64,000 nt of DNA from Aeoliella straminimaris (lineage in GTDB: Bacteria > Planctomycetota > Planctomycetia > Pirellulales > Lacipirellulaceae): contig NZ_JAMXLR010000003.1 of NCBI RefSeq assembly GCF_024054565.1, positions 1-64,000 on the forward strand, read 5' to 3'. Every line of letters begins with the position of its first letter. The first letter of the stretch is position 1. Under the pieces are notes generated by a model that was not told the DNA's origin, searched no databases, and saw nothing but the letters and a program-made list of their open reading frames with translations. Positions 34,382 to 48,893 of the stretch are shown here, piece by piece. The position numbers and the translations under genes were made by a program.

Positions 34382-35578
34382 TCAACTGTCGAGACAAGCT
34401 TCCACCACGGCGGTGGCAAGCACCTTGGCGCCAATGGCCAGGCAACGCTCGTCGATATCGAACAACGGAGTGTGCAGGCCGCTGGCAGGGGTGTTGTCGC
34501 GCGACGAACCAAGGCGGAACATCACGCCGGGGACGTGTTCCTGAAAAAAAGCAAAGTCTTCGCCGCCCATACTGGGGCGGTCGATCCATTGTACGCGGTC
34601 GGTGCCCAGCAGGCTGCCCGAAATGTTGGCGACCAGGTTGGTCAGCCGGAGATCATTTTCGACACCGGGAATATGCACGCCGAAATCGATATGAATCTTG
34701 GTGCCGGTAAGTTGTCCCACCGACTCGGCCACATGGGCCACATGGCCCACCACGTGATTGCGGACGTCGCGGCCCAAGGCGCGGATCATACCCGACATGG
34801 TCACTCGGTCGGGAATCACATTGGAAGCGGAGCCCCCTTCGATTTGGGTAATCGCCACTACGGCTGCATCCTGGCTATCGATGCCACGCGGCACGAGTTG
34901 GTAGATGGCCGTGACGAACTGCGCGGCCGCCGCGATGGTGTCCTTTGCCAAGTGCGGCCGTGCGGCGTGACTGGCCGCACCTTCGACTTCGATCCGCATG
35001 GCGTCGCAGTGTGCAGTAAAAGTGTTTGCCCTCACCCCCACAGTACCCACGGCGCGCGTGGGATCGACGTGCAGCGCGAAGATGCCGTCGACTCCCTGCA
35101 ACACGCCATTGGCGACCATTTCGCTCGCGCCGGTGGCGGTTTCTTCGGCCGGTTGAAACAGGCCTCGCCAGGTGACTGGACAGGGCAGCGCGCCGGCCTT
35201 GGCCAATTCGGCCAGCGTGACAATCGCCCCATACACGCACGTGGCGTGGGCATCGTGGCCGCAGCCGTGCATGATGCCCTCGTTGCGGCTGCGATACTCC
35301 ACCTGCTTCCGATCCTTCAGCACCAAAGCATCGATATCGCCCCGCAAGGCGACTCGCTTCGCCGCCGATTGATCCTCGCTGTCGGCGATCACTCCTCGAC
35401 GATGTTGCGGCACCACCGAGGCAATGCCATGCTCGGCCAAACGCATCTGCAGGAACTCACTCGTGGCGTACTCCTGATTGCTCGGCTCGGGATGTCGATG
35501 CAGGTGACGACGGACCTCGATCAGCTCGTCGGCGCGACGATCCACGGCGTCCCACAGCTGTTGTTGCCAGTCGGGCAT
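34382..35578 (-). CDS. M20 family metal-dependent amidohydrolase
   Basis: A 398-residue M20D-type aminoacylase/hippurate hydrolase. Family motifs are RRHLHRHPEPSNQEY at the start, the metal-binding MHGCGHDAHATC, FQPAEETATGASEMV with the catalytic and metal Glu, and the C-terminal MGGEDFAFFQEHVPGVMFRLG. The lid domain carries EVEGAASHAARPH. It hydrolyses an N-acyl or amide bond of an amino acid derivative in the cytoplasm; the substrate is not determined. ATG 35578 (MPDWQQQL) is chosen where similarity starts; the frame extends to 35641. Confidence 0.92.
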   Translation of the reverse strand: MPDWQQQLWDAVDRRADELIEVRRHLHRHPEPSNQEYATSEFLQMRLAEHGIASVVPQHRRGVIADSEDQSAAKRVALRGDIDALVLKDRKQVEYRSRNEGIMHGCGHDAHATCVYGAIVTLAELAKAGALPCPVTWRGLFQPAEETATGASEMVANGVLQGVDGIFALHVDPTRAVGTVGVRANTFTAHCDAMRIEVEGAASHAARPHLAKDTIAAAAQFVTAIYQLVPRGIDSQDAAVVAITQIEGGSASNVIPDRVTMSGMIRALGRDVRNHVVGHVAHVAESVGQLTGTKIHIDFGVHIPGVENDLRLTNLVANISGSLLGTDRVQWIDRPSMGGEDFAFFQEHVPGVMFRLGSSRDNTPASGLHTPLFDIDERCLAIGAKVLATAVVEACLDS

Positions 35579-35769
35579 CTGATAGTGGCAAGAGGCACGT
35601 GACGGGTGGACGCAAGCGACTGGCCCCATGCCACACGTCACTCGCCACCCGTTGTCTATGTATAGCCTACCACGTTATCCGCACGTGCGGCTATGGAGCC
35701 GATACGCCGAAGCACGCTTTTCGGCAGCTATCAACCAGCACCAACGGTGCGAGCGTGGTCACCGGGCAC

Positions 35770-38313
35770 TCACTCCGACCTTTGCTTGACCGCCAGGCAC
35801 AGCCCGGCCGTTGTCGACTCGCCTGGAAGCAGCAGGCTGAACAAGTAACCGGCCACCGTGGTGACGATCACACCGATCATCGAATACAAGAAGAAATGGA
35901 CATGGCCATACACGAAGTAGAGTGCCACGGTGCTGCAAATCACTCCCATGATGGCGCCGGAGGAGTTTCCCCGCGCGGTGAAGATGCCCAGCACGAACAG
36001 CCCGGCGACAATACCAATCGTGAGTCCTACGATGGTAGTAAACAGATCGAGCGACGAGAGAATGCCAAACTGCTTGACGAGAATCGCCGACACCGTGGCC
36101 AGGCAACCCAGCGCGAGTGTAATCCAGCGGGCCATGTGCAGTCGCGCAGCATCCGAACGCTCAGGTCTTAGCCGGGCGTAGAAATCGGTCACCAGTACCG
36201 TCGCCACGCTGTGCATCGAGCTATCGAGACTCGACATCGCGGCGGCGAAGATCGAAGCAATGATGAACCCCGATAGCCCCGGTGGCAGTTGTTGGGCGAT
36301 GAATAGCGGGACAATGCCATCCACCCTCACGCCAGGATCCATGAGCGCCGGATTCGACCGATAGAACACGTACAACGCTGTGCCCAGCAGGTAGATCAAC
36401 ACCGCCCACGGCACCGACACCGCCACATCGGTCCACAGTGCCCGCGTTGCGCTGCGTTGGTCCTTCGTCGCCAGGAAACGCTGCACCGAAGCCTGGTCCG
36501 CGGTAAGCATGGCCAAGCGTTGGAACAGATTGCCAACCAGCACGACCCACAGCGCGGTGGTGGTGAATTGCCAGCCGGGATCAACCATGCGAAACTTGTC
36601 GTGCTCGCTGGCCACGGCGAACAGCTCGCCGAGCCCGCCCTCGAGATCGAGAACCACCACGGTAATGCAAGCCAGGCCACCCAGCAGCAACATGACCGCT
36701 TGTAACACGTCGGTCCACACCACGGCCTCGATGCCGCCGGCAATGGTGTAGGCCGTGGCCAGGCTTCCCATCAGTACGATGCACCACACGACATCGATGC
36801 CGGTCACCGCGTTCAGCGCGATCGCCGGCAGGTACAGAACGATGGTCATGCGTCCCAGTTGGGTGAGTACAAAAGCCGTGGCTCCCAACATGCGCACCGC
36901 CCCATTGAATCGCACCTCCAGGTACTCGTAAGCACTGGTGATCTTCAAACGACTGAAAAATGGCAGGTACGCGCGAGTGACAATCGGCACCACCAGGAAC
37001 CACGTGGCCACGCCGGTGAAGTACACCCAATTGGTGGCGAACACCTTGCCAGGGATCGCCATGAAGCCAATGGAACTAACCTGCGTGGCCATCAGGCTCA
37101 GCCCAATCGCCCACCAAGGTAGCCGCTTCCCGCCCAGAAAGAAGTCGGAAGAGGAATTTTCCCGGCGCGAGCAGTAGAATCCGATGCCCGCTAGCGACGC
37201 CAGGTATAGCACCAACGCCACGTAGTCGATCATCCCAAACTTTGGCGGGGCCGGTTGAGGGGTTACCTGCCATCCGTCGGGGGTGCGAATCCGCGGGCGC
37301 AGCTCGCCGCCCGGCAGAAACAAACTGTTGTGCCAGCTGACCGCGTACGTCCCGGCAACTCCTTGTGGCATTTTGCCCATGGTCGACCAGGTGTCGGTGA
37401 TCGTATGGTAGACGAGCACATCGCGGACGAACTGGTAGTCGGGCTGCAGCTCCGCGATGCCATCGACGTCGTGTCCGTCCGATCCACTGAACACCATCAG
37501 GTGCGATTGCCCCACGGCTGCAACCGGCGCAGCAAACGCAGCCCGCGGCACCTCGGCTTGCTGTCGCCAGGTACCTTCGCTGGGCGAAAAACTGTGTACG
37601 TCGCGGAGGTACTCGCTGCCGTGTTTGCCACTGACGAGGTACAGCCGGTCGGCGAAGCCATCCCACTGCGGCACCAGCAAAGCGCCGCTTCGCGGTGGTC
37701 CCTCCCAAGTTGGCAGTCGCTGCCATCCGCGTTCATTGCGGGGTGCGTCGAGATCGAGACAAAGAAACTCCTCGAGTTGCTTCCCTTGGTGGTTTCCACC
37801 GGCCACGTAAACCTTCTGTCCCAAGATGGCCGCCGCCAGATATGAACGCGGCGAGGGCAGCGCCGCGGGCTCGGTGACTACCTCCGCCGAGTTGGTATCG
37901 CCGTGCCACTCAATCCAGAACGCCTCGGCGGTCTCCCCGGAGGCGTCTGTACCGCCCATACAAAACAAACCTCGCGGCGTGCCGACCGCTGCACCATGGG
38001 CCAAGGGCCGCGGCAATCGCCCCACCAACCGCCAGTCGGCCGTTTCGCGATGGGCAAGATCTAGTGCGTAGATCGTATTGAGATACTGTTTGGGATCCTC
38101 CCAGTCGGGAAAGTTCGAACCGCCCGCCACGATCAGTCGATCGCCAACCATCCCCACGTAAGCCCCCGCGATGCCCAGCGAGTCGGGCAGTTGGGGGAGC
38201 TCTTGCCAGTGCAGAAGATCATCTGGCGGGGCGGTGTCCGATGCTCCAGCGATCGCGCCAACACCGGCGGCGAGCAGTAGCACTAGCAGGCAGTTTCGTG
38301 ATATCGGGTGCAT
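35770..38313 (-). CDS. Kelch beta-propeller fused to a sodium:solute symporter
   Basis: An 847-residue fusion. A signal peptide (ISRNCLLVLLLAAGVGAIAG) leads into about 340 residues of kelch repeats (RLIVAGGSNFP, GLFCMGGTDASGE, KVYVAGGNHQGKQ, LYLVSGKHGSEYL, HLMVFSGSDG, SLFLPGGELRP), resembling N-acetylneuraminate epimerase (NanM). From about residue 365 follows a full SSS-family transporter of some 13 helices, with GFYCSRRENSSSDFFLGGKRLPWW and the family signature region around ASIFAAAMSSLDSSMHSVATV. The propeller should sit outside the membrane in front of the transporter. Two small unknown genes precede it closely. Sialic acid or a similar sugar as substrate is only a guess. Confidence 0.9.
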   Translation of the reverse strand: MHPISRNCLLVLLLAAGVGAIAGASDTAPPDDLLHWQELPQLPDSLGIAGAYVGMVGDRLIVAGGSNFPDWEDPKQYLNTIYALDLAHRETADWRLVGRLPRPLAHGAAVGTPRGLFCMGGTDASGETAEAFWIEWHGDTNSAEVVTEPAALPSPRSYLAAAILGQKVYVAGGNHQGKQLEEFLCLDLDAPRNERGWQRLPTWEGPPRSGALLVPQWDGFADRLYLVSGKHGSEYLRDVHSFSPSEGTWRQQAEVPRAAFAAPVAAVGQSHLMVFSGSDGHDVDGIAELQPDYQFVRDVLVYHTITDTWSTMGKMPQGVAGTYAVSWHNSLFLPGGELRPRIRTPDGWQVTPQPAPPKFGMIDYVALVLYLASLAGIGFYCSRRENSSSDFFLGGKRLPWWAIGLSLMATQVSSIGFMAIPGKVFATNWVYFTGVATWFLVVPIVTRAYLPFFSRLKITSAYEYLEVRFNGAVRMLGATAFVLTQLGRMTIVLYLPAIALNAVTGIDVVWCIVLMGSLATAYTIAGGIEAVVWTDVLQAVMLLLGGLACITVVVLDLEGGLGELFAVASEHDKFRMVDPGWQFTTTALWVVLVGNLFQRLAMLTADQASVQRFLATKDQRSATRALWTDVAVSVPWAVLIYLLGTALYVFYRSNPALMDPGVRVDGIVPLFIAQQLPPGLSGFIIASIFAAAMSSLDSSMHSVATVLVTDFYARLRPERSDAARLHMARWITLALGCLATVSAILVKQFGILSSLDLFTTIVGLTIGIVAGLFVLGIFTARGNSSGAIMGVICSTVALYFVYGHVHFFLYSMIGVIVTTVAGYLFSLLLPGESTTAGLCLAVKQRSE

Positions 38314-38386
38314 ATGCTGTGAACGGGAGCATGAAGAGGTAGCCGCCTGCAGTGGTCCCAACGCGTCAACTGCGGCGTGGCTCGAG

Positions 38387-38719
38387 TCACTTGAGAACAA
38401 GGTTGATGTTGACGTTGAAGCGAGCCTGCTCGCCTTCGACCGATCCCTCGAGCCGCAGCCAGCCGCCAAAGTGAGTGACGCGTACAAAGCTTACGCCCAA
38501 TTGGTCGATCCGCTGGAACTCGGTACCTTCGTCAGCCCAATGAATACCGTCCGGCGAGACTTGCACCCGGGCCTGCAGGGCGGGGTTCTCTCCTTCGAGC
38601 TCCTGAACGCGGATAAAGAATATCGCCTCGGTCGCCCAGGCGCATTCGTAGGGCTCCGTAGCAAAGCTTTGGGTGTAGTCGCGGTGCCGTTCCAAGGCGG
38701 CCGTAATCGAGTGTCTCAT
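38387..38719 (-). CDS. Unknown 110-residue protein
   Basis: A soluble protein without signal peptide or membrane helix. It starts MRHSITAALERHRDYTQSFA and continues with alternating beta-strand-like segments (EAIFFIRVQEL, ALQARVQVSPDG, VSFVRVTHFGGWLRLEG, ARFNVNINLVL), so a small beta-sandwich is likely. The gene lies 39 bases after its larger partner and 73 bases before the kelch-symporter, all on one strand. I do not recognise the family and infer a role in the same pathway only from position. Confidence 0.7.
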   Translation of the reverse strand: MRHSITAALERHRDYTQSFATEPYECAWATEAIFFIRVQELEGENPALQARVQVSPDGIHWADEGTEFQRIDQLGVSFVRVTHFGGWLRLEGSVEGEQARFNVNINLVLK

Positions 38720-38758
38720 CCTCAGCGTACTTTCGAATGGATAAGGGAAAGGCGGAAC

Positions 38759-39691
38759 TCACTCCGCCGAGATCAGCACCGAATCGACGAAAAGAAACAC
38801 GCGGCGAGTCGTATCGGCTTCGATCCAGATCACCGGATTCAATAACGAAGTAATGCCGCGATACGGTGCAACCAGCGTCGGCTGCACACCCTGCAACGAA
38901 TAGGTGCTCCGGCCCGACTGCAGCTCGCAGTATTCGCGACGTTGGGTATCGATAGTCAACCGAAAGTAGGACCAGTTGATCTTGTCGTCCGACTCGTTGT
39001 AGCAGAGCACTTCCTCGCCGCCCGGCACCCACTTGAACGAGTCGGCGTCGCCATTGGACTGGCGCTTGCCAAACCACACTGGGTCGATACCGCGCTTGCA
39101 CCAATCGCCTTCGGTATCATACGCCCACTCGCTGTCGGTTACATCGGCAGCCTGAGCGTACTGCCATTTACGGGCGAGCGTGCCGTTTACGGAGTTCACA
39201 TAGCGGGCGGCGGAGAAGTAGCGATGTTCGGTGTCCTGGATGTCGAACAGCGCGCCGAACGCGCGAATGTCTTTTTCGCCGATGCCGGCGCGATCCTGCT
39301 CGGGCGTGTACGCATACCACATCTCGAGCTGTAGCTTGCCGCTGTTGGCGAACGGCAGGGAGGTCATTCGTTTGATGGCCATGCTCATAGCGCCGGGCGC
39401 CGGTGGCTGTTCGTACGGATTCGCCTCGGGGCGAGTGGCCAGCTTTAGCGAATACAACCCGTTCATCGCGCCGTGCGTCCCCGCATAGCCGAAGTTGGCG
39501 TTCGACAACATCACTGGCCCCCAGCGATGCTTGGTCACGATACTGGGTCGCGGCTTGTGCCCTTCCAGCACGAAGTTGTTCATCAGGTCGATCCAGCCGC
39601 ACTGTCCCTGATTAAAATCGTCGTAGGCCAGGATGTTTTGCAGCGGCCGGTAACGGCCAGAGAGCAATAGCGGATGGGAAAACTCGTTCAT
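38759..39691 (-). CDS. Unknown 310-residue protein, first gene of the kelch-symporter run
   Basis: A soluble, beta-rich protein with no signal peptide. It opens with MNEFSHPLLLSGRYRPLQN and contains ILAYDDFNQGQCGWIDLM, KLQLEMWYAYTPEQD, and a C-terminal end VIWIEADTTRRVFLFVDSVL. The DxF, the LxMWY pattern and the paired strands at the end recall jelly-roll (concanavalin-like) carbohydrate-binding folds, but no catalytic site stands out. It begins the run 310-residue protein, 110-residue protein, kelch-symporter. Function unknown. Confidence 0.75.
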   Translation of the reverse strand: MNEFSHPLLLSGRYRPLQNILAYDDFNQGQCGWIDLMNNFVLEGHKPRPSIVTKHRWGPVMLSNANFGYAGTHGAMNGLYSLKLATRPEANPYEQPPAPGAMSMAIKRMTSLPFANSGKLQLEMWYAYTPEQDRAGIGEKDIRAFGALFDIQDTEHRYFSAARYVNSVNGTLARKWQYAQAADVTDSEWAYDTEGDWCKRGIDPVWFGKRQSNGDADSFKWVPGGEEVLCYNESDDKINWSYFRLTIDTQRREYCELQSGRSTYSLQGVQPTLVAPYRGITSLLNPVIWIEADTTRRVFLFVDSVLISAE

Positions 39692-39958
39692 TGTGCCTGC
39701 ACACGCTCCTTGCTACGAAAGGGCTCGGCGGCGGCACTCGACATGTTTTCAACAACGCCCGAGCAGAGGAAGACCTGCGCGGAGAATCCTCGGTGCGTTT
39801 GCCGCCAAACCCGCCGCCGACATATTACTGAAAAACCAGAAATATTCTACGCATCTTATTACCACAGTCGTGGCCATGCAAGCACACACCGAAGGCGACA
39901 GCACGAAAGATCGCCCAAACCCGGCATTCTTGACCGCAAAATTAGCCCACAGCCCCGA

Positions 39959-41098
39959 CTACCGACGGAGCGAGTCGGCCAAGTACACCGCGATCGGGCA
40001 GAAGATGATCAGCGGCAGCCACGCGGCCAGCGTCGGGCGGATCCAGCCCGAATTACCCAGTGACTGGCAGCCAATCGTCACGGTAAAGTAGGCCGCTACG
40101 ACCAGGGCTGCCAGACCGACCGCCAGGTACAGATTGCGATTGCCGCGCGTTACCACCAGCGGCAGTCCCAGAAACAGCAGCGTGCAGTCCAGCAATGGCT
40201 TCACCAGCCGCGAATGCACCTCGACTCGCAGGTCGTTGCCCAGATCCACACTCGGACTATGTAGCTCGTCGATTAGTTCGAGCGTCGAGGCGTGTTGCCT
40301 CCACGCGGTGCCTGCCAGCAGTCGCTCGAAGTCGACATTGCTCACCAGAAACACTTCATCCGACTTCAGCCACCCCGCGTCGCACGGCATTACCAGCACG
40401 GGGAGGTCGTCCTGCATCAGCGAGGGTCGCTCGCTGAGGTGCTTGGGGGTAACCACGCCACTCAGCAGGTAGCCACCCGGTTTGGAGTCGTCGGGCGGCT
40501 GGTATACGGCACTTTCGGCGTATACCAGCTTGCCGTACCTCGAGAGGTGAGACGGCAGAATCAAACTCACGCCCGCCAGGGTTTGTGTGGCGGTCACGGC
40601 TTCTTCGGCGTCGATGCGGATGCCGGTTTGCGTGTCCTGTCGCGAAGCCACTTCCTGGGCGCGATTGCTACCCAGGTTTTTGGCGTCCGAGGCCAGCTTC
40701 TCGCGAATCTGGGGCAGCACCACCTCGCGGTTGGTGGCCGCCAGAATGCATACTACCACCGCCGCGATAATCACCGGTCGCAACACCCGCAGGCGCGACA
40801 CGCCCGCGGCCATCAGGGCGGTCATTTCGTTGTACCGTTCGATCCAGGTGATAGTGAACATGGCCGCCACCAGCGGTAGCACGCCACTTATGATCTCGAA
40901 GAAGTAAATCGACTTGTAGCCGTAGTACTGCAACATCACCTGCGCGTAAGACTGATTCATCTCCTTCGCCACGCGGCTGAAGTCATCCAGATTCTGAAAC
41001 GCATCAATCACCACAAACAGCCCTGTCAGGCTGACGTAACAGATCAGGAAGATCTGCACGAACTGCCACAGCAGGTATCGATCGATGATTCGCAGCAT
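39959..41098 (-). CDS. LptF/LptG family lipopolysaccharide-export permease
   Basis: A 379-residue YjgP/YjgQ permease with six membrane helices: three in the first 125 residues (FVQIFLICYVSLTGLFVVI; GVLPLVAAMFTI; VIIAAVVVCILA), a periplasmic beta-jelly-roll domain in the middle, and three at the end. Such proteins form the LptB2FG transporter moving LPS from the inner to the outer membrane. Only one of the usual pair is in this window. ATG 41098 is taken; a GTG 12 bases upstream is in frame. It is divergent from comF. Confidence 0.9.
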   Translation of the reverse strand: MLRIIDRYLLWQFVQIFLICYVSLTGLFVVIDAFQNLDDFSRVAKEMNQSYAQVMLQYYGYKSIYFFEIISGVLPLVAAMFTITWIERYNEMTALMAAGVSRLRVLRPVIIAAVVVCILAATNREVVLPQIREKLASDAKNLGSNRAQEVASRQDTQTGIRIDAEEAVTATQTLAGVSLILPSHLSRYGKLVYAESAVYQPPDDSKPGGYLLSGVVTPKHLSERPSLMQDDLPVLVMPCDAGWLKSDEVFLVSNVDFERLLAGTAWRQHASTLELIDELHSPSVDLGNDLRVEVHSRLVKPLLDCTLLFLGLPLVVTRGNRNLYLAVGLAALVVAAYFTVTIGCQSLGNSGWIRPTLAAWLPLIIFCPIAVYLADSLRR

Positions 41099-43209: not shown

Positions 43210-44127
43210 GTGGCCAAGCGAGTGCTGCGACTAGGAACCCGAGGCAGCAAACTGGCCCGTTGGCAAGCCGACTGGACCGCCGCGCGACTCACCGAAATCG
43301 GCCATCTGGTCGAGATTGTCGAGATCACCACCACCGGCGACGCCAATCAATCGACCGACCTCGGCGCCATCGGCGGTGTGGGACTGTTCACCAAGGAGAT
43401 TCAGCGGGCGCTGCTGGACGATACCGTCGACCTGGCGGTGCACAGCCTGAAGGACCTGCCAACCACGCCGGTACCGGGCCTCACCCTGGCCGCTGTGCCC
43501 GAGCGGGAAGTGGTGGCCGACGCCCTGGTTTCGAACACGGCCCGTTCGATCGACGAACTGCCCGCTGGCGCTCGCGTCGGCACTGGTAGCCTGCGTCGCC
43601 GCTCACAGCTCTTGAAGCTGCGGCCCGATCTGCAGCTGTGCGACGTCCGCGGGAACGTTGACACGCGACTCCGCAAGCTCGACGCGGGCGACTTCGACGC
43701 GATGGTGCTGGCCGCTGCCGGGCTGACGCGGTTGGGTCTGGACGAGCGGATCGCCCAGCAGATACCGTTCGACCAGATGCTGCCGGCCCCGGGCCAGGGT
43801 GCCCTGGGCATCGAATGCCGCGCGGATGACGGAGAAGCGTTCTCGGCCCTCGCCCCGCTGAACGTTGCCGAGGCCCGCGCCGCGGTGACCGCCGAACGAA
43901 CAATGCTGGCCCACGTCGAAGGGGGCTGCCTGGCCGCCATCGGCGCACATGCAACGGTCGACGACGATCAGTTGCATCTTGTCGCCCGCATCCTTAGCGC
44001 TGACGGCACGGAGTGCTTGGCTGCCAAGTCGACGGGAGCGATGGATGATGCGGAGATGATTGGGCGACAGGTGGGCACTGAGTTGCTCGCCCAGGGGGCG
44101 AAGCGATTAGTGGAAGAGCGGCGGTAG
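43210..44127 (+). CDS. hemC: Hydroxymethylbilane synthase (porphobilinogen deaminase) HemC
   Basis: HemC joins four porphobilinogen units into hydroxymethylbilane for haem and corrinoid synthesis. Recognisable stretches are LRLGTRGSKLARWQ, VDLAVHSLKDLPT, GTGSLRRRSQL, RGNVDTRLRKL and LPAPGQGALGIECR. The dipyrromethane cofactor binds Cys240 in EGGCLAAIGAHA. The start is a GTG at 43210 with AGGA 6 bases upstream, 8 bases after the DUF502 stop. At 305 residues it has the usual length. Confidence 0.96.
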   Translation: MAKRVLRLGTRGSKLARWQADWTAARLTEIGHLVEIVEITTTGDANQSTDLGAIGGVGLFTKEIQRALLDDTVDLAVHSLKDLPTTPVPGLTLAAVPEREVVADALVSNTARSIDELPAGARVGTGSLRRRSQLLKLRPDLQLCDVRGNVDTRLRKLDAGDFDAMVLAAAGLTRLGLDERIAQQIPFDQMLPAPGQGALGIECRADDGEAFSALAPLNVAEARAAVTAERTMLAHVEGGCLAAIGAHATVDDDQLHLVARILSADGTECLAAKSTGAMDDAEMIGRQVGTELLAQGAKRLVEERR

Positions 44128-44137
44128 AGGGGGAGTC

Positions 44138-44563
44138 TCAGTTGCGATCGACCGCCGCAACGTCAGCAACCAACTTCTTAGCGTTTCTAACATTAATCAG
44201 AATTGCCACTGTACACATTCGATCAATGCGAAAGACGCGCATAACGTCGAAGCAGTTTTGAAAGTCAATGGAGAGCGGTCTTCCCTGGTATTGCATCAGG
44301 ACAACATGCTTGGTCCTTGATCGGCCAGCCACTACCGCAATAGCAGTGCTTCCATCAGGCCTGCCTGCTGTCGCGAATGCACCCCAGACAGCCGAATCTA
44401 CCAGTGCTACCACCCAACAATCGCAATCTGAACAATTCCTCCAGAATTCACTTTGAATAGAGTCGGATTGCTTTAGAATCGACAGGCGACCTCTCGTGAA
44501 GCGGCCTCGGTGACGACTCTTCCGCCATTCACCAGGTGTTCTGCGTTCTTTGAGCGTGAGCAC
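44138..44563 (-). CDS. Uncertain open reading frame, possibly truncated at its start
   Basis: A 141-codon frame starting at a GTG. The second half reads like a protein (KHVVLMQYQGRPLSIDFQN; TVAILINVRNAKKL) with a plausible codon mix. The frame stays open upstream of the GTG for about 75 more bases without a good start codon, so it may be the remnant of a longer gene. No family recognised. It converges on hemC, 10 bases from its stop. It could equally be chance. Confidence 0.3.
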   Translation of the reverse strand: MLTLKERRTPGEWRKSRHRGRFTRGRLSILKQSDSIQSEFWRNCSDCDCWVVALVDSAVWGAFATAGRPDGSTAIAVVAGRSRTKHVVLMQYQGRPLSIDFQNCFDVMRVFRIDRMCTVAILINVRNAKKLVADVAAVDRN

Positions 44564-44877
44564 TTCAAAACCGCACTCCCACTTGCAAAGGAGTGCTTTG
44601 ATCCGCCACGCCTTCTTTGTGCGATCTCGGCCGAATCACAATGACATAAGGAGTTGCCAATGAGGTGTATTTAGGTGCCTTGATAGACTGGTGTAGTGCT
44701 TCATTCGCTTTGCAGGTTGCCCTACTTCCCATTGGCGAGTTTGTGGAGGTGTCGTACCTGTTCGAAGCCATACTCCACCAAATGGGCATTCGGAAAATGC
44801 CATGCGTGGCATCCGGCCCAGTGAAGTCACTCTGTGATCTCAAGTCAGCACCACTTCAGACGACAGGAGAAGATCCC
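44564..44877. other. Intergenic region before a PEP-CTERM gene
   Basis: About 310 bases without a credible gene. ATGCCA and TGGCAT form a short hairpin around 44798-44813. AGGAGA at 44866-44871 is the ribosome site of the next gene. No promoter was recognised with confidence. Confidence 0.3.
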
Positions 44878-45579
44878 ATGTTGTACAAGTCGAGCGATTC
44901 GTCGAACGCCAAGCCTGTATCGTTTCGGATTCTCCTAGAAGGTAGCATTCTAGCTTGCTGGGGGGGCATCATCGCATGCCAAGTCGCGACGGGGAGTTCA
45001 CTTCCCATGCAGAACCAACTGGATCCCCGGCACTTGGATCTTGATCCGGCTGCAGGGGGATCGGGTATCTTCGTGGCGCCGGGGGTTACCTACGAGCAAT
45101 CGTTTGGTGACGCTCTGGACAGCGCCGAAGACTGGTACGCTGAGTTTCTGATTGGAAACCCGATGGGCAGTCAACCCGTTGCATTCGATATGAACCTCGT
45201 GTGGCCTGGCGGCAATACGCAGGGCCCTGGGCTACTGCAGCCTGGCTTTGCGTTTGTGTTGAAGGTAAACCCGACTGACATCCCTGAAACGAGGCCCAAC
45301 TGGCTGTTTACCTTCACGAATCCCACCAGCCAGGATCTCATCGTCGATGCGTCGGTGAGCGAGGCACTAAGCCTGACCACACCGCCGGAAACCAGTTACG
45401 GTTTCTTTACTCTCGCTGGCGAGCCCGCAGGTTCCACAGTGGATAATCGATTCACTCCCGGTGACATTGGCCCAAATCCGGTAAGACTTGGAATAGTACC
45501 GGAGCCAACGGCATTCGGGTTGGCACTGGTTGGAGCGTGCCTCCTACTGGCAGGTGGATATCGGGCCGGGAAAAGCTAA
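44878..45579 (+). CDS. PEP-CTERM anchored exported protein
   Basis: A 233-residue exported protein. The N-terminus has a hydrophobic segment (ILLEGSILACWGGIIACQVA) after an extended hydrophilic start. The C-terminus is a PEP-CTERM signal: VPEP, a hydrophobic helix (FGLALVGACLLLAGGY) and a basic tail (RAGKS). Exosortase recognises such tails; no exosortase gene is in the window. The middle is beta-rich with no known domain (FDMNLVWPGGN; NWLFTFTNPTSQDLIVDASV). AGGAGA 7-12 bases before ATG 44878 fixes the start. Confidence 0.75.
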   Translation: MLYKSSDSSNAKPVSFRILLEGSILACWGGIIACQVATGSSLPMQNQLDPRHLDLDPAAGGSGIFVAPGVTYEQSFGDALDSAEDWYAEFLIGNPMGSQPVAFDMNLVWPGGNTQGPGLLQPGFAFVLKVNPTDIPETRPNWLFTFTNPTSQDLIVDASVSEALSLTTPPETSYGFFTLAGEPAGSTVDNRFTPGDIGPNPVRLGIVPEPTAFGLALVGACLLLAGGYRAGKS

Positions 45580-45853
45580 ACCACCATTCCCAACCTAAAG
45601 TGCGAGTGCCTATAGAACCTCCGGACGAAGGCATCAAATCGCAATTGGCCTGAGTCCACGCTGTTCTGTGAAGCAATTGGACCGCCGTGCTGCTATCGGT
45701 CCACGCCTCCGGATCTGGCAGCGCGGTGGTTGCTTGCTTTGACAACCCTACGGTTCAACACCGCCATTTGAACAGTTCAAAAGGGCTATTTCTCGCGCAT
45801 GACGGGATGTCTTGCGGCTGAGAAAGAACTAGCTTGTGTTTGTGCGTAGGAAC

Positions 45854-45889
45854 GTCTTTTGCGAAAAGACCTGGTTGCGATTAGCAACC
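45854..45889 (+). promoter_or_regulatory. Tandem small hairpins in the upstream region of the metzincin-like gene
   Basis: Two perfect hairpins follow each other: GTCTTTT(GCG)AAAAGAC at 45854-45870 and GGTTGC(GATTA)GCAACC at 45873-45889. They lie about 65 bases before the start codon at 45954 and are not followed by T tracts. Farther up, TTGACA at 45739-45744 could be a -35 box but has no good -10 at the right distance. The rest of the 374-base gap (45580-45953) holds nothing recognisable. Confidence 0.45.
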
Positions 45890-45953
45890 CCTTCGCGATG
45901 ACTCCAGACTACGGACCTGATCTATCTCCGGCATGTGGCCAAAGGGGGTTACG

Positions 45954-48893
45954 ATGGTTAGCGGTTGCTGTTTGACACCTCGCCTGCTCTCGGTAGTTCT
46001 CTTTGCGTCACTTCTCGTGCCCACGTTCTATGCAACAACCAAGGCAGTGACCATCAATGTCTCATTCTCGCAGTTTACTGATGCGCCCAACTTTGATCCG
46101 ACGGGAGATAAAATGCTGGCCATCGTCAACGCGGCTGCCAACTACTGGGAAGATATCATTGAAGATCCGTTTGTTCTCGATGTGGAAATTGGCTATGAGA
46201 ATATCGGCGGTAATGGACGTGCGGCGTTCGCCTGCTATGCCACGGGACCGTTAAACTGTATCGACGGCGACGTACAACCAAGCACGCCCGATTTTGGGCT
46301 CATCCGCTTTGATACCATGCAGACTGTCGGGAGAGCTGGCACGAATGCCGACGGAACGTTGCGGTGGTTTTTCGACAGCACTCCACTTGATCATTCTGAA
46401 TTCGAGATGCAGCAAACGTTGGTGAGGTCTCTCTCACCCCTCAATGTCGCATTTGTCTATTCCGAGACCAGTCCGCCCGAATTGATGGAGGCGGGCATGC
46501 TAGGCAATGCAAGTAGTCCGACCAACGAATTCGACGCTTTCACGATTGCAGTGCACGAGTTGGGACATCTGCTGGGTACGCTGAACGAAATCTCGCTGCC
46601 AGAAACGGCAACTGACGACGCTTACGACGTGAATCCCGATTTCGTATACGGGGCAACCGTTGAGATTGCCACCAATTCCGGCGATGGCGAACATCTGGCA
46701 AGCACCATTGGCCTCATGCGGTCGACTGTATCTGTGGATCAGCGTTTGCTTCCCTCGGCGACTGACGTGTTTGCCATAGCCGCCGGAGCCGACCCCGACT
46801 GGGCATTCATCGATTTGCCAAGGCAAGACTTTCTCGGCGGCACGCTGTGGGACATTCTCGCAAACTGGGAGGGCAATAGCATTCCGGACGAAGACGATAG
46901 TGCATTCATCCGCCACGGCGGCGACGTGCGAGTACTGGCAAACCACGCAGTGGCCAACTTGCTGATCGCTGAAGGCAGTAGCCTCGAACTGGATGGAAAT
47001 GGCAACTCACTAACCGTCGGCAACACCCTGACCATCGGTGGCGAAGGTGGGGGTACGGCGGTCATGTCGGTACTTGGTGACAAGTCGATTACCGCTTCGG
47101 TGGTCCGCGTTCGCGATGACGGTCGCCTATTCACATCAGGCAGTATTTTTGACGTCGACGTTGATGCCGCGGAGGTGATTGTCGAGCAGGGTGGGCTCGT
47201 TTCGGGGACCGGGCGCATACGAGCTGACAACATCAGGCTATCGGGCACCTTAACGGCCATTGCTCCCGTCGGCAGTTTGATGAATGTACTCACTCTCGAT
47301 GCCAATCCGGGGGGAGAGATCGATCTGGACGGTACTGGAAGCGGACAGGTGTTTGCCGTCCTGGCGAGTGTCAGCATCTCCGGCCCGCTTTCCGACAGTT
47401 TTGGTGGCGAAATCACCGTCGGTGCCGGGCGGTCGGTTTTCTTTGACGAGCCGTGGACATTTGGCACCCCTCAGCTAAATGGAGACGGAGTGGGGGTCCT
47501 CAATCTAAATGGGGGGAGTAGCGATACGCAGCTAGCCACTCTCGACACCCAGGGATGGACCGCCCGGGATGGGCGAATAAACGTGTCCGGGCGAGCCAAC
47601 ATTCTGAGGGCAACGGAATTCCTGCAGGGGGTGGAAGTGAATGTGGCGACCGACGGCTTTCTTGACCTCGACGGCGTGACCACTTTCAGAGGCGGTACCT
47701 ACACCGGAGGCGGCAGCATCGTGTTGAACAATGACACTGCGGTGGAATCGGACACCACTGTCGAAGTCAGCCGATTCGACCTCGACGGCGACAGCTTCGG
47801 TCAAACAGTGACACTCAACGCACCGCTTACGTTAAATGTTGACTACATCGATACCGGCAATAACAACTTCAATTTTGATACGATCGACATCAACTTCAAC
47901 GGTCGGTTGGCAGTGAATCTCAACACCTCGAGCGCCTGGACCATGGCCAGTACGTTGAACATCAACTTCGGACTTTTCCCGCAAACGGTGCTAGACGGGG
48001 TCGGGGTCAACATCACCGGCACGCTCAACGCCGACGGATCGAGTGTGGTTGCCGCCCCGCTCGATGTGTCTGGCACATTCCACTTCGTCGACACACAGTC
48101 GAGGGTCACTCTTTCATCGGCTCCGTTTGTAAGGCTCAGCGAGCATGTGATACGTACCGGGGCTACGATCGACGGCGGTGGCACACTTGTAATCGGCAGC
48201 ACCGCCCTGCTCACGCTGGAAGACGGCGTGCAGATTGGTGAAAACGTCGAGAACCAGGGGGAGTTGCAAATTGGCAATTCACCCGGCGCAGCTCAAGTTG
48301 GCTTCTACTCGCAATCGGCCAATGCGTCATGGCATGTCGAAATCGCCGGAACACCCAGATCGGGCGAGTTTGATCAACTCGACGTCGTCGGCCAGGCGGA
48401 CCTGGCTGGGGTGCTCGACGTGCTTTTGAACGACGAATACACACCGAATGTGGGGGACGAGTTTACTGTTCTCACCGCCAACCGGATATCGAATACATTC
48501 GACGAGCTCACGGTTGCCGACGAAGCGGATATCCTGAACGTCACCTTGGTTGCCTTGTATTCTCCGAATACGGTTGTACTTCGCATCGAAAACATAGGAC
48601 TTTGGGGCGACTACAACGGCGATGGTGTCGTCAACGCAGCCGACTACACCGTGTGGCGAAACAACCTTGGGTCGCCAGCAGGTACGCTGCCCAACGACCC
48701 ACATGGATCACCGATTGGCACGTTTCAGTACGAAACGTGGAAGTCTAGCTTCGGAAACACCTTGCCGGAGTCAGCTCTACGACAGCTGTCCGCTGTGCCG
48801 GAGCCAAGTGCTATCGCATTCGTTGTACAAACCGGCGCGTTACTGATCATGTGGGCTTGCCAGCGATGCACCGCCAACAAGGCCCGGCAATAG
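45954..48893 (+). CDS. Large exported metzincin-like protein with beta-helix repeats, dockerin-like segment and PEP-CTERM tail
   Basis: A 979-residue protein. A signal peptide (LLSVVLFASLLVPTFYA) precedes a metalloprotease-like domain (about 30-290) with the helix motif AVHELGHLLGTLNE. HExxH is intact, but the usual third zinc ligand of metzincins (HExxHxxGxxH) is Asn. Residues of about 310-800 are repetitive beta-strand turns with NG, GG and DG, probably a beta-helix stalk. At about 885 a dockerin-type loop appears (GDYNGDGVVNAADYTVWRNN), the second repeat being degenerate (FQYETWKSSFGNT). The end is VPEPSAIAFVVQTG with a hydrophobic helix and basic tail. ATG 45954 is chosen over 45933 for the AAGGGGG 6-12 bases upstream. 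Confidence 0.85.
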   Translation: MVSGCCLTPRLLSVVLFASLLVPTFYATTKAVTINVSFSQFTDAPNFDPTGDKMLAIVNAAANYWEDIIEDPFVLDVEIGYENIGGNGRAAFACYATGPLNCIDGDVQPSTPDFGLIRFDTMQTVGRAGTNADGTLRWFFDSTPLDHSEFEMQQTLVRSLSPLNVAFVYSETSPPELMEAGMLGNASSPTNEFDAFTIAVHELGHLLGTLNEISLPETATDDAYDVNPDFVYGATVEIATNSGDGEHLASTIGLMRSTVSVDQRLLPSATDVFAIAAGADPDWAFIDLPRQDFLGGTLWDILANWEGNSIPDEDDSAFIRHGGDVRVLANHAVANLLIAEGSSLELDGNGNSLTVGNTLTIGGEGGGTAVMSVLGDKSITASVVRVRDDGRLFTSGSIFDVDVDAAEVIVEQGGLVSGTGRIRADNIRLSGTLTAIAPVGSLMNVLTLDANPGGEIDLDGTGSGQVFAVLASVSISGPLSDSFGGEITVGAGRSVFFDEPWTFGTPQLNGDGVGVLNLNGGSSDTQLATLDTQGWTARDGRINVSGRANILRATEFLQGVEVNVATDGFLDLDGVTTFRGGTYTGGGSIVLNNDTAVESDTTVEVSRFDLDGDSFGQTVTLNAPLTLNVDYIDTGNNNFNFDTIDINFNGRLAVNLNTSSAWTMASTLNINFGLFPQTVLDGVGVNITGTLNADGSSVVAAPLDVSGTFHFVDTQSRVTLSSAPFVRLSEHVIRTGATIDGGGTLVIGSTALLTLEDGVQIGENVENQGELQIGNSPGAAQVGFYSQSANASWHVEIAGTPRSGEFDQLDVVGQADLAGVLDVLLNDEYTPNVGDEFTVLTANRISNTFDELTVADEADILNVTLVALYSPNTVVLRIENIGLWGDYNGDGVVNAADYTVWRNNLGSPAGTLPNDPHGSPIGTFQYETWKSSFGNTLPESALRQLSAVPEPSAIAFVVQTGALLIMWACQRCTANKARQ

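Follow-up and report, generated by a model that had tools for sequence, protein, structure and literature searches.

The closest described relatives of the system reported here serve sialic acid uptake. SiaT of Proteus mirabilis (PDB 5NV9; TC 2.A.21) is a Na+/sialic acid symporter in which Ser60 and Arg135 bind the carboxylate of N-acetylneuraminic acid (Neu5Ac) and in which the mutations T63A and Q82D abolish transport (PMC5931594), and NanM is a periplasmic mutarotase that works ahead of the transporter (PMC10017367). We analysed positions 1-64,000 of contig NZ_JAMXLR010000003.1 from Aeoliella straminimaris (GCF_024054565.1), and this entire 64,000-nt stretch is called the window below. It contains three minus-strand genes, which encode in order a DUF6772 protein, a DUF6385-like protein and a single chain of a NanM-type kelch propeller and a SiaT-like symporter of the SSS family. 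We lean towards reading them as an uptake cassette for a sialic-acid-type carboxylated sugar, with a periplasmic mutarotase domain and cytosolic handling by the first two proteins. The gene sizes of 310 and 110 residues and the gaps of 39 and 73 bases agreed exactly with the initial annotation of this DNA. The novelty lies in the pair and in the re-specialised transporter, and the fusion itself is not novel.

Comparison of the fusion protein with SiaT and NanM

The fusion gene (35770..38313, minus strand) encodes 847 aa with a signal peptide at approximately residues 1-25. Its start was placed at an internal ATG and not at the TTG at 38487, because the 905 aa open reading frame (ORF) beginning with TTG would overlap the preceding gene and the ATG yields the signal peptide. 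The frame is unbroken and its architecture recurs in dozens of full-length homologues, so the single-chain fusion claimed at the outset is real, and an origin as a frame or assembly artefact was ruled out by these homologues.

The symporter domain comprises fusion residues 359-828 (35830..37239, minus strand). It scored 154 bits against SSF (PF00474; cut-off 22.8, E = 7e-45, profile positions 1-404 of 406) and 243.8 bits against TIGR00813 (cut-off 184), which places it in the SSS family. The best solved structure was SiaT 5NV9 (E = 8.7e-100), with 38% identity over 470 residues. The Na2 site is kept, as A409, V412 (backbone), A691, S694 and S695 correspond to SiaT A56, L59, A339, S342 and S343, and so is Asp182 of the Na3 site. 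The carboxylate-binding Ser60 and Arg135 correspond to S413 and R488, and both are retained in 57/57 homologues; the survey behind this count covered 246 phylum genomes and 197 order genomes, and 57 full-length homologues were examined with their flanks. The differences from SiaT are S345D at Na3, the N-terminal kelch domain and the pocket, where the other Neu5Ac contacts Thr63, Gln82, Asn247 and Gln250 are changed to G416, V435, R599 and M602 (T63G, Q82V, N247R and Q250M). Because these four contacts are not those of SiaT, we did not class the window transporter as a true sialic acid symporter.

The kelch propeller comprises fusion residues 33-350 (37264..38217, minus strand) and was recognised by Pfam as NANM (E = 1.5e-27) and Kelch_1 (E = 2e-17). 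Among kelch-specific NCBIfam profiles the best was TIGR03548 (E = 5e-39), which describes circularly permuted mutarotases, but the 134 bits remained below its cut-off of 243, and the 93 bits against TIGR03547 were below 256, so the window kelch stands under the curated cut-offs of both mutarotase families, and its fusion to a transporter also sets it apart from TIGR03548. The permutation was evident from the alignment of NANM profile positions 226-346 to fusion residues 33-139. When the kelch domain was written twice, a wrap-around alignment to NanM (YjhT) of E. coli (PDB 2UVK) covered residues 36-331 (E = 1.4e-12), which means that the propeller is alignable over nearly its entire length once permutation is allowed. 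NanM is soluble, whereas the window kelch is circularly permuted and joined to a permease. The equivalents of NanM E209 and R215, which are reportedly catalytic (Severi et al. 2008), are found in an E337-x5-R343 motif at 37285..37305 (minus strand), and both residues are retained in 53/57 fused homologues. SSS proteins of this topology, as established for PutP, have their N-terminus outside the cytoplasm, so a propeller following the signal peptide would be periplasmic.

The DUF6772 and DUF6385-like pair

The first gene (38759..39691, minus strand) encodes 310 aa that belong to DUF6772 (PF20562, E = 3.7e-87), with 292.6 bits against a Pfam gathering cut-off of 27. The second (38387..38719, minus strand) encodes 110 aa that fall just under the cut-off of DUF6385 (PF19912, E = 1.3e-5, 25.5 bits against 26.8), which makes the protein a relative and not a member of that family. 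Thus, the two proteins are not the orphans that they had been called at first. In neither protein was there a signal peptide, as there is no room for one in the open frame and no hydrophobic N-terminus. They would therefore act in the cytoplasm after import, and not outside it as the processing factors that had been proposed.

A contig scan recovered DUF6772 in 17 loci from Pirellulales, other Planctomycetota, Actinobacteria, Chloroflexi, Spirochaetes and Nitratireductor, and in 17/17 of them the 110 aa gene was directly downstream, with gaps of mostly -7 to +15 bases. Together with the window and three further genomes (G417, G633 and G561), the pair was adjacent in 21/21 intact loci, covering Planctomycetota, Actinobacteria, Chloroflexi, Spirochaetes and Alphaproteobacteria. 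A separate sequence (G323:C198, L109 7591-7912) preserves no more than the junction of the two genes, with the last part of DUF6772 and the first part of the DUF6385-like gene, and is apparently a decayed copy of the pair.

About 50 columns of DUF6772 are invariant over 18 sequences and many of them are charged or polar, with H73, K83, R108, E123, E131, D150, R157, R163, E233, K237 and R244 among the invariant residues, a degree of invariance that would exceed what is usual for a plain structural domain. The AlphaFold2 model of DUF6772 is a concanavalin-A-like beta jelly roll of moderate confidence (mean pLDDT 69, pTM 0.75), and that of the DUF6385-like protein is a small beta-sandwich of high confidence (pLDDT 93). 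Foldseek matched DUF6772, at E-values near 1e-4 and TM 0.3-0.5, mostly to ConA-like lectins, calreticulin, a PL36 lyase and GH43 enzymes, and the DUF6385-like protein weakly to GOLD domains and CBM16/22/61 among others. Both predicted folds are common in carbohydrate binding and processing, and the searches give the fold class only, as no function can be assigned at TM-scores of 0.3-0.6. Sequence search found no solved structure for DUF6772, and matches of the DUF6385-like protein to designed beta-trefoils in the same kind of search had marginal E-values and were dismissed as noise. No description of DUF6772 or of the kelch-SSS fusion was found in the literature searched, most subscription journals falling outside that search.

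Linkage of the pair to one transporter subclade

DUF6772 is rare (2/246 and 2/392 phylum genomes, 6/397 order genomes), and it therefore does not track the kelch-SSS fusion in general. A maximum-likelihood tree was built from 60 SSS domains (475 columns, pocket columns included). The window copy fell in a five-member group with 100/100 support, and this group and the later-found G633 have in common T63G, Q82V/I and, wherever that position is covered, also N247R (SiaT numbering); it is unlikely that three pocket columns of 475 drive the grouping. In three Pirellulales genomes, the window genome, G417 (transporter 63% identical to that of the window over 214 residues, where the contig ends) and G633 (transporter 57% identical), the pair is directly upstream of this transporter subclade on the same strand. 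So the expected co-occurrence of the two families with the fusion does not hold in general, but in Pirellulales the pair does precede this one transporter subclade. An earlier view of pair and symporter as unrelated, based on the 2/246 phylum genomes and on G130, where the pair occurs without SSS, was revised after G417 and G633.

In other loci the surroundings vary. The Pirellulales metagenome-assembled genome CSMAG_2310 (L053) has, after the pair, the C-terminal part of another SSS protein in convergent orientation where the contig ends, and the contig of G561 stops 455 bases past the pair. A divergent GntR/FCD regulator is common to G417, G633 and L053, and in G417 and L053 BNR genes lie on its far side. 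In G130 the pair stands with a DUF4838 protein and PhyH dioxygenases. Elsewhere it occurs with ABC importers and LacI or GntR regulators; outside Planctomycetota, five loci (L056, L061, L062, L063 and L054) have it near ABC importers of SBP_bac_5 or sugar type together with LacI/GntR, contexts that suggest carbohydrate-use islands. In the high-GC actinobacterial loci greedy longest-ORF calling picks some antisense ORFs, and context there rests on Pfam-confirmed genes only.

An empty site in the same genus

The genome G363 of the same genus keeps the window gene order over approximately 13 kb, but its LptF/G gene directly adjoins the M20 gene and all three module genes are missing. In the window the corresponding flanks are an M20 amidohydrolase (34382..35599, minus strand) and an LptF/LptG-family permease (39959..41092, minus strand). 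Because a 14-base stretch upstream of M20 is common to both genomes, the missing block was placed at approximately 35675..39955 (no strand assigned; collinear flanks in L170, boundaries approximate). DUF6772 was absent from the other examined genomes of the genus. Either gain in the window or loss in G363 could account for this difference, and the block behaves as one unit. The treatment of the three genes as one unit is thus borne out by the empty site and by the DUF6772-DUF6385-SSS order repeated in G417 and G633. The M20 amidohydrolase and GCS2 were rejected as operon members, as relatives that lack the module, same genus included, still have the two conserved together.

Kelch-SSS fusions in Planctomycetota

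Full-length kelch-SSS proteins are common in the sampled phylum and order genomes, and many Planctomycetota have the fusion without the two partners, so the proposal of a fusion that is new or bound to them is not supported. Within 7 kb of the 57 fusions we found genes of the DHDPS/NanA family at 27, sulfatases at 19, BNR (sialidase-type) genes at 15 and GlcNAc 2-epimerase (AGE) genes at 13, and 40/57 fusions had at least one neighbour among DHDPS, AGE, BNR, sulfatase, SASA and GntR. The sulfatases weigh little because they are abundant in planctomycetes, and the lyase and epimerase weigh more: with 5 DHDPS-family genes in the 7.8 Mb of the window genome, approximately 1% of random sites would be expected this near one by our own arithmetic. 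From these neighbours, the likeness to SiaT, the kept Ser60/Arg135 and the kept NanM 209/215 residues, the fusion family most likely acts like NanM joined to SiaT, that is, as a mutarotase plus a sialic-acid-type symporter.

Fusions of sialic-type clusters (e.g. L033, L034 and L047) have an architecture identical to that of the window copy, but they retain a SiaT-like Thr63 and have genes for NanA-type lyase, epimerase, BNR or sulfatase next to them, neither of which applies to the window copy. Reference sequences of DHDPS/NanA, GlcNAc 2-epimerase, BNR, sulfatase, SASA and GntR/FCD gave zero matches across the 64 kb window, and with DHDPS, AGE and BNR all at 0 there is no sialic acid catabolic cluster by these markers, NanE and NanK not having been searched for. 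The initial remark that no sialic acid catabolic genes are nearby therefore stands for the window, but it does not extend to the family or to a second kelch-SSS copy in the same genome (contig C29), which is 38% identical and of the ordinary family kind. That copy directly adjoins a DHDPS-family gene in a run of DHDPS, kelch-SSS, sulfatase and BNR genes (L033, C29 195000-214900), and three of the five DHDPS-family genes of the genome are on the C29 contig within approximately 18 kb.

Separate coding of kelch and transporter in relatives, which would have spoken for an artefact, was not seen: an adjacent kelch gene was found at 0/8 loci of unfused SSS relatives checked (L181-L188). These transporters are 35-46% identical to the window SSS domain; one of them (L183) is beside a DHDPS gene, and two have weak BNR matches nearby.

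Proposed function and alternatives

In the proposed cassette, secreted hydrolases would release a sugar anomer outside the cell, the periplasmic NanM-type kelch domain would convert it to the form accepted by the permease, the SSS domain would import the carboxylated sugar coupled to Na+, and DUF6772 and the DUF6385-like protein would bind or process it in the cytoplasm. We infer that mutarotase activity persists in the window copy, and the cytosolic handling of the sugar by the pair would follow import. Because of the pocket changes T63G, Q82V/I and N247R, the subclade may have moved to a different sugar acid, probably a more acidic or differently substituted one, and the substrate of the cassette is probably sialic-like but not plain Neu5Ac.

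One competing explanation is plain Neu5Ac uptake by a NanM-SiaT chain that was relocated out of a nan cluster, with the two small proteins as unrelated passengers. Family context and homology to SiaT and NanM agree with it, as do the intact E337/R343 and the DHDPS-family gene beside the second copy, but three Neu5Ac-contact positions differ, and since T63A and Q82D inactivate SiaT (PMC5931594), transport of plain Neu5Ac by this subclade is doubtful. The pair also precedes the same subclade in two further genomes and hence is no chance neighbour, so we consider this explanation unlikely. It is similarly improbable that the pair is independent of transport, for example carbohydrate-sensing or structural, and is co-located only through sugar-use islands. 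Its presence in several phyla with varied importers and regulators, and the SSS-free locus of G130 with DUF4838 and PhyH genes, would fit such a role, but three Pirellulales genomes repeat one operon order with one transporter subclade, and this and the single block at the window's site argue against it.

Several observations weigh against the cassette as proposed. The link of the pair to this symporter is not universal, as in Actinobacteria it accompanies ABC importers, and no lyase able to consume sialic acid was found within the window. In addition, the five other subclade members have lost mutarotase residues or have a damaged propeller: L111 and L112 lack the putative mutarotase residues, the propeller is degraded in L046, it is absent in G417, where the signal peptide and a linker of approximately 45 residues are kept and no kelch homologue was found elsewhere in the genome, and it is reduced to approximately the first blade in G633. 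Because of these losses the need for mutarotation may have gone, even in copies such as that of the window in which the residues remain. They would also favour a vestigial or purely structural or binding propeller, with DUF6772-DUF6385-symporter alone as the working unit. Against this, the window copy alone in the subclade retains a full-length propeller with both E337 and R343, which argues for continued constraint, and we regard a vestigial propeller in the window protein as rather unlikely. Separately from this, kelch had been taken as an essential part of the module, and its deletion in G417 and near-loss in G633 while partners and symporter stay speak otherwise; judged from these genes, kelch is optional and the module is DUF6772-DUF6385-symporter. 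The G633 gene (L179 1765-3543, G633:C314), in which a signal peptide and about one kelch blade run straight onto SSS, is an apparent intermediate of propeller loss.

A broader reading, held only tentatively, is that the pair is a previously unrecognised obligate cytosolic system, probably a carbohydrate-active enzyme plus an accessory beta-sandwich subunit, coupled to different importers across phyla; in Pirellulales it would form a travelling cassette together with a SiaT-like symporter re-specialised for a sugar acid other than Neu5Ac, the fused mutarotase being lost.

The locus offers a natural coupling of probable anomer conversion to transport in a single chain, and related genes with and without the propeller make a direct test of its contribution possible. 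For two families of unknown function whose genes are always neighbours it also provides an initial clue to their role, and should the changed pocket reflect a new substrate, Pirellulales would be using an acidic sugar that has gone unrecognised.

A promoter scan of the window locus found none and was uninformative. Beyond the block, at 44000-48000 of the window, G+C drops from approximately 0.62 to 0.53-0.57, and this region encodes a secreted-looking protein of 986 aa with a dockerin-like stretch near its end.

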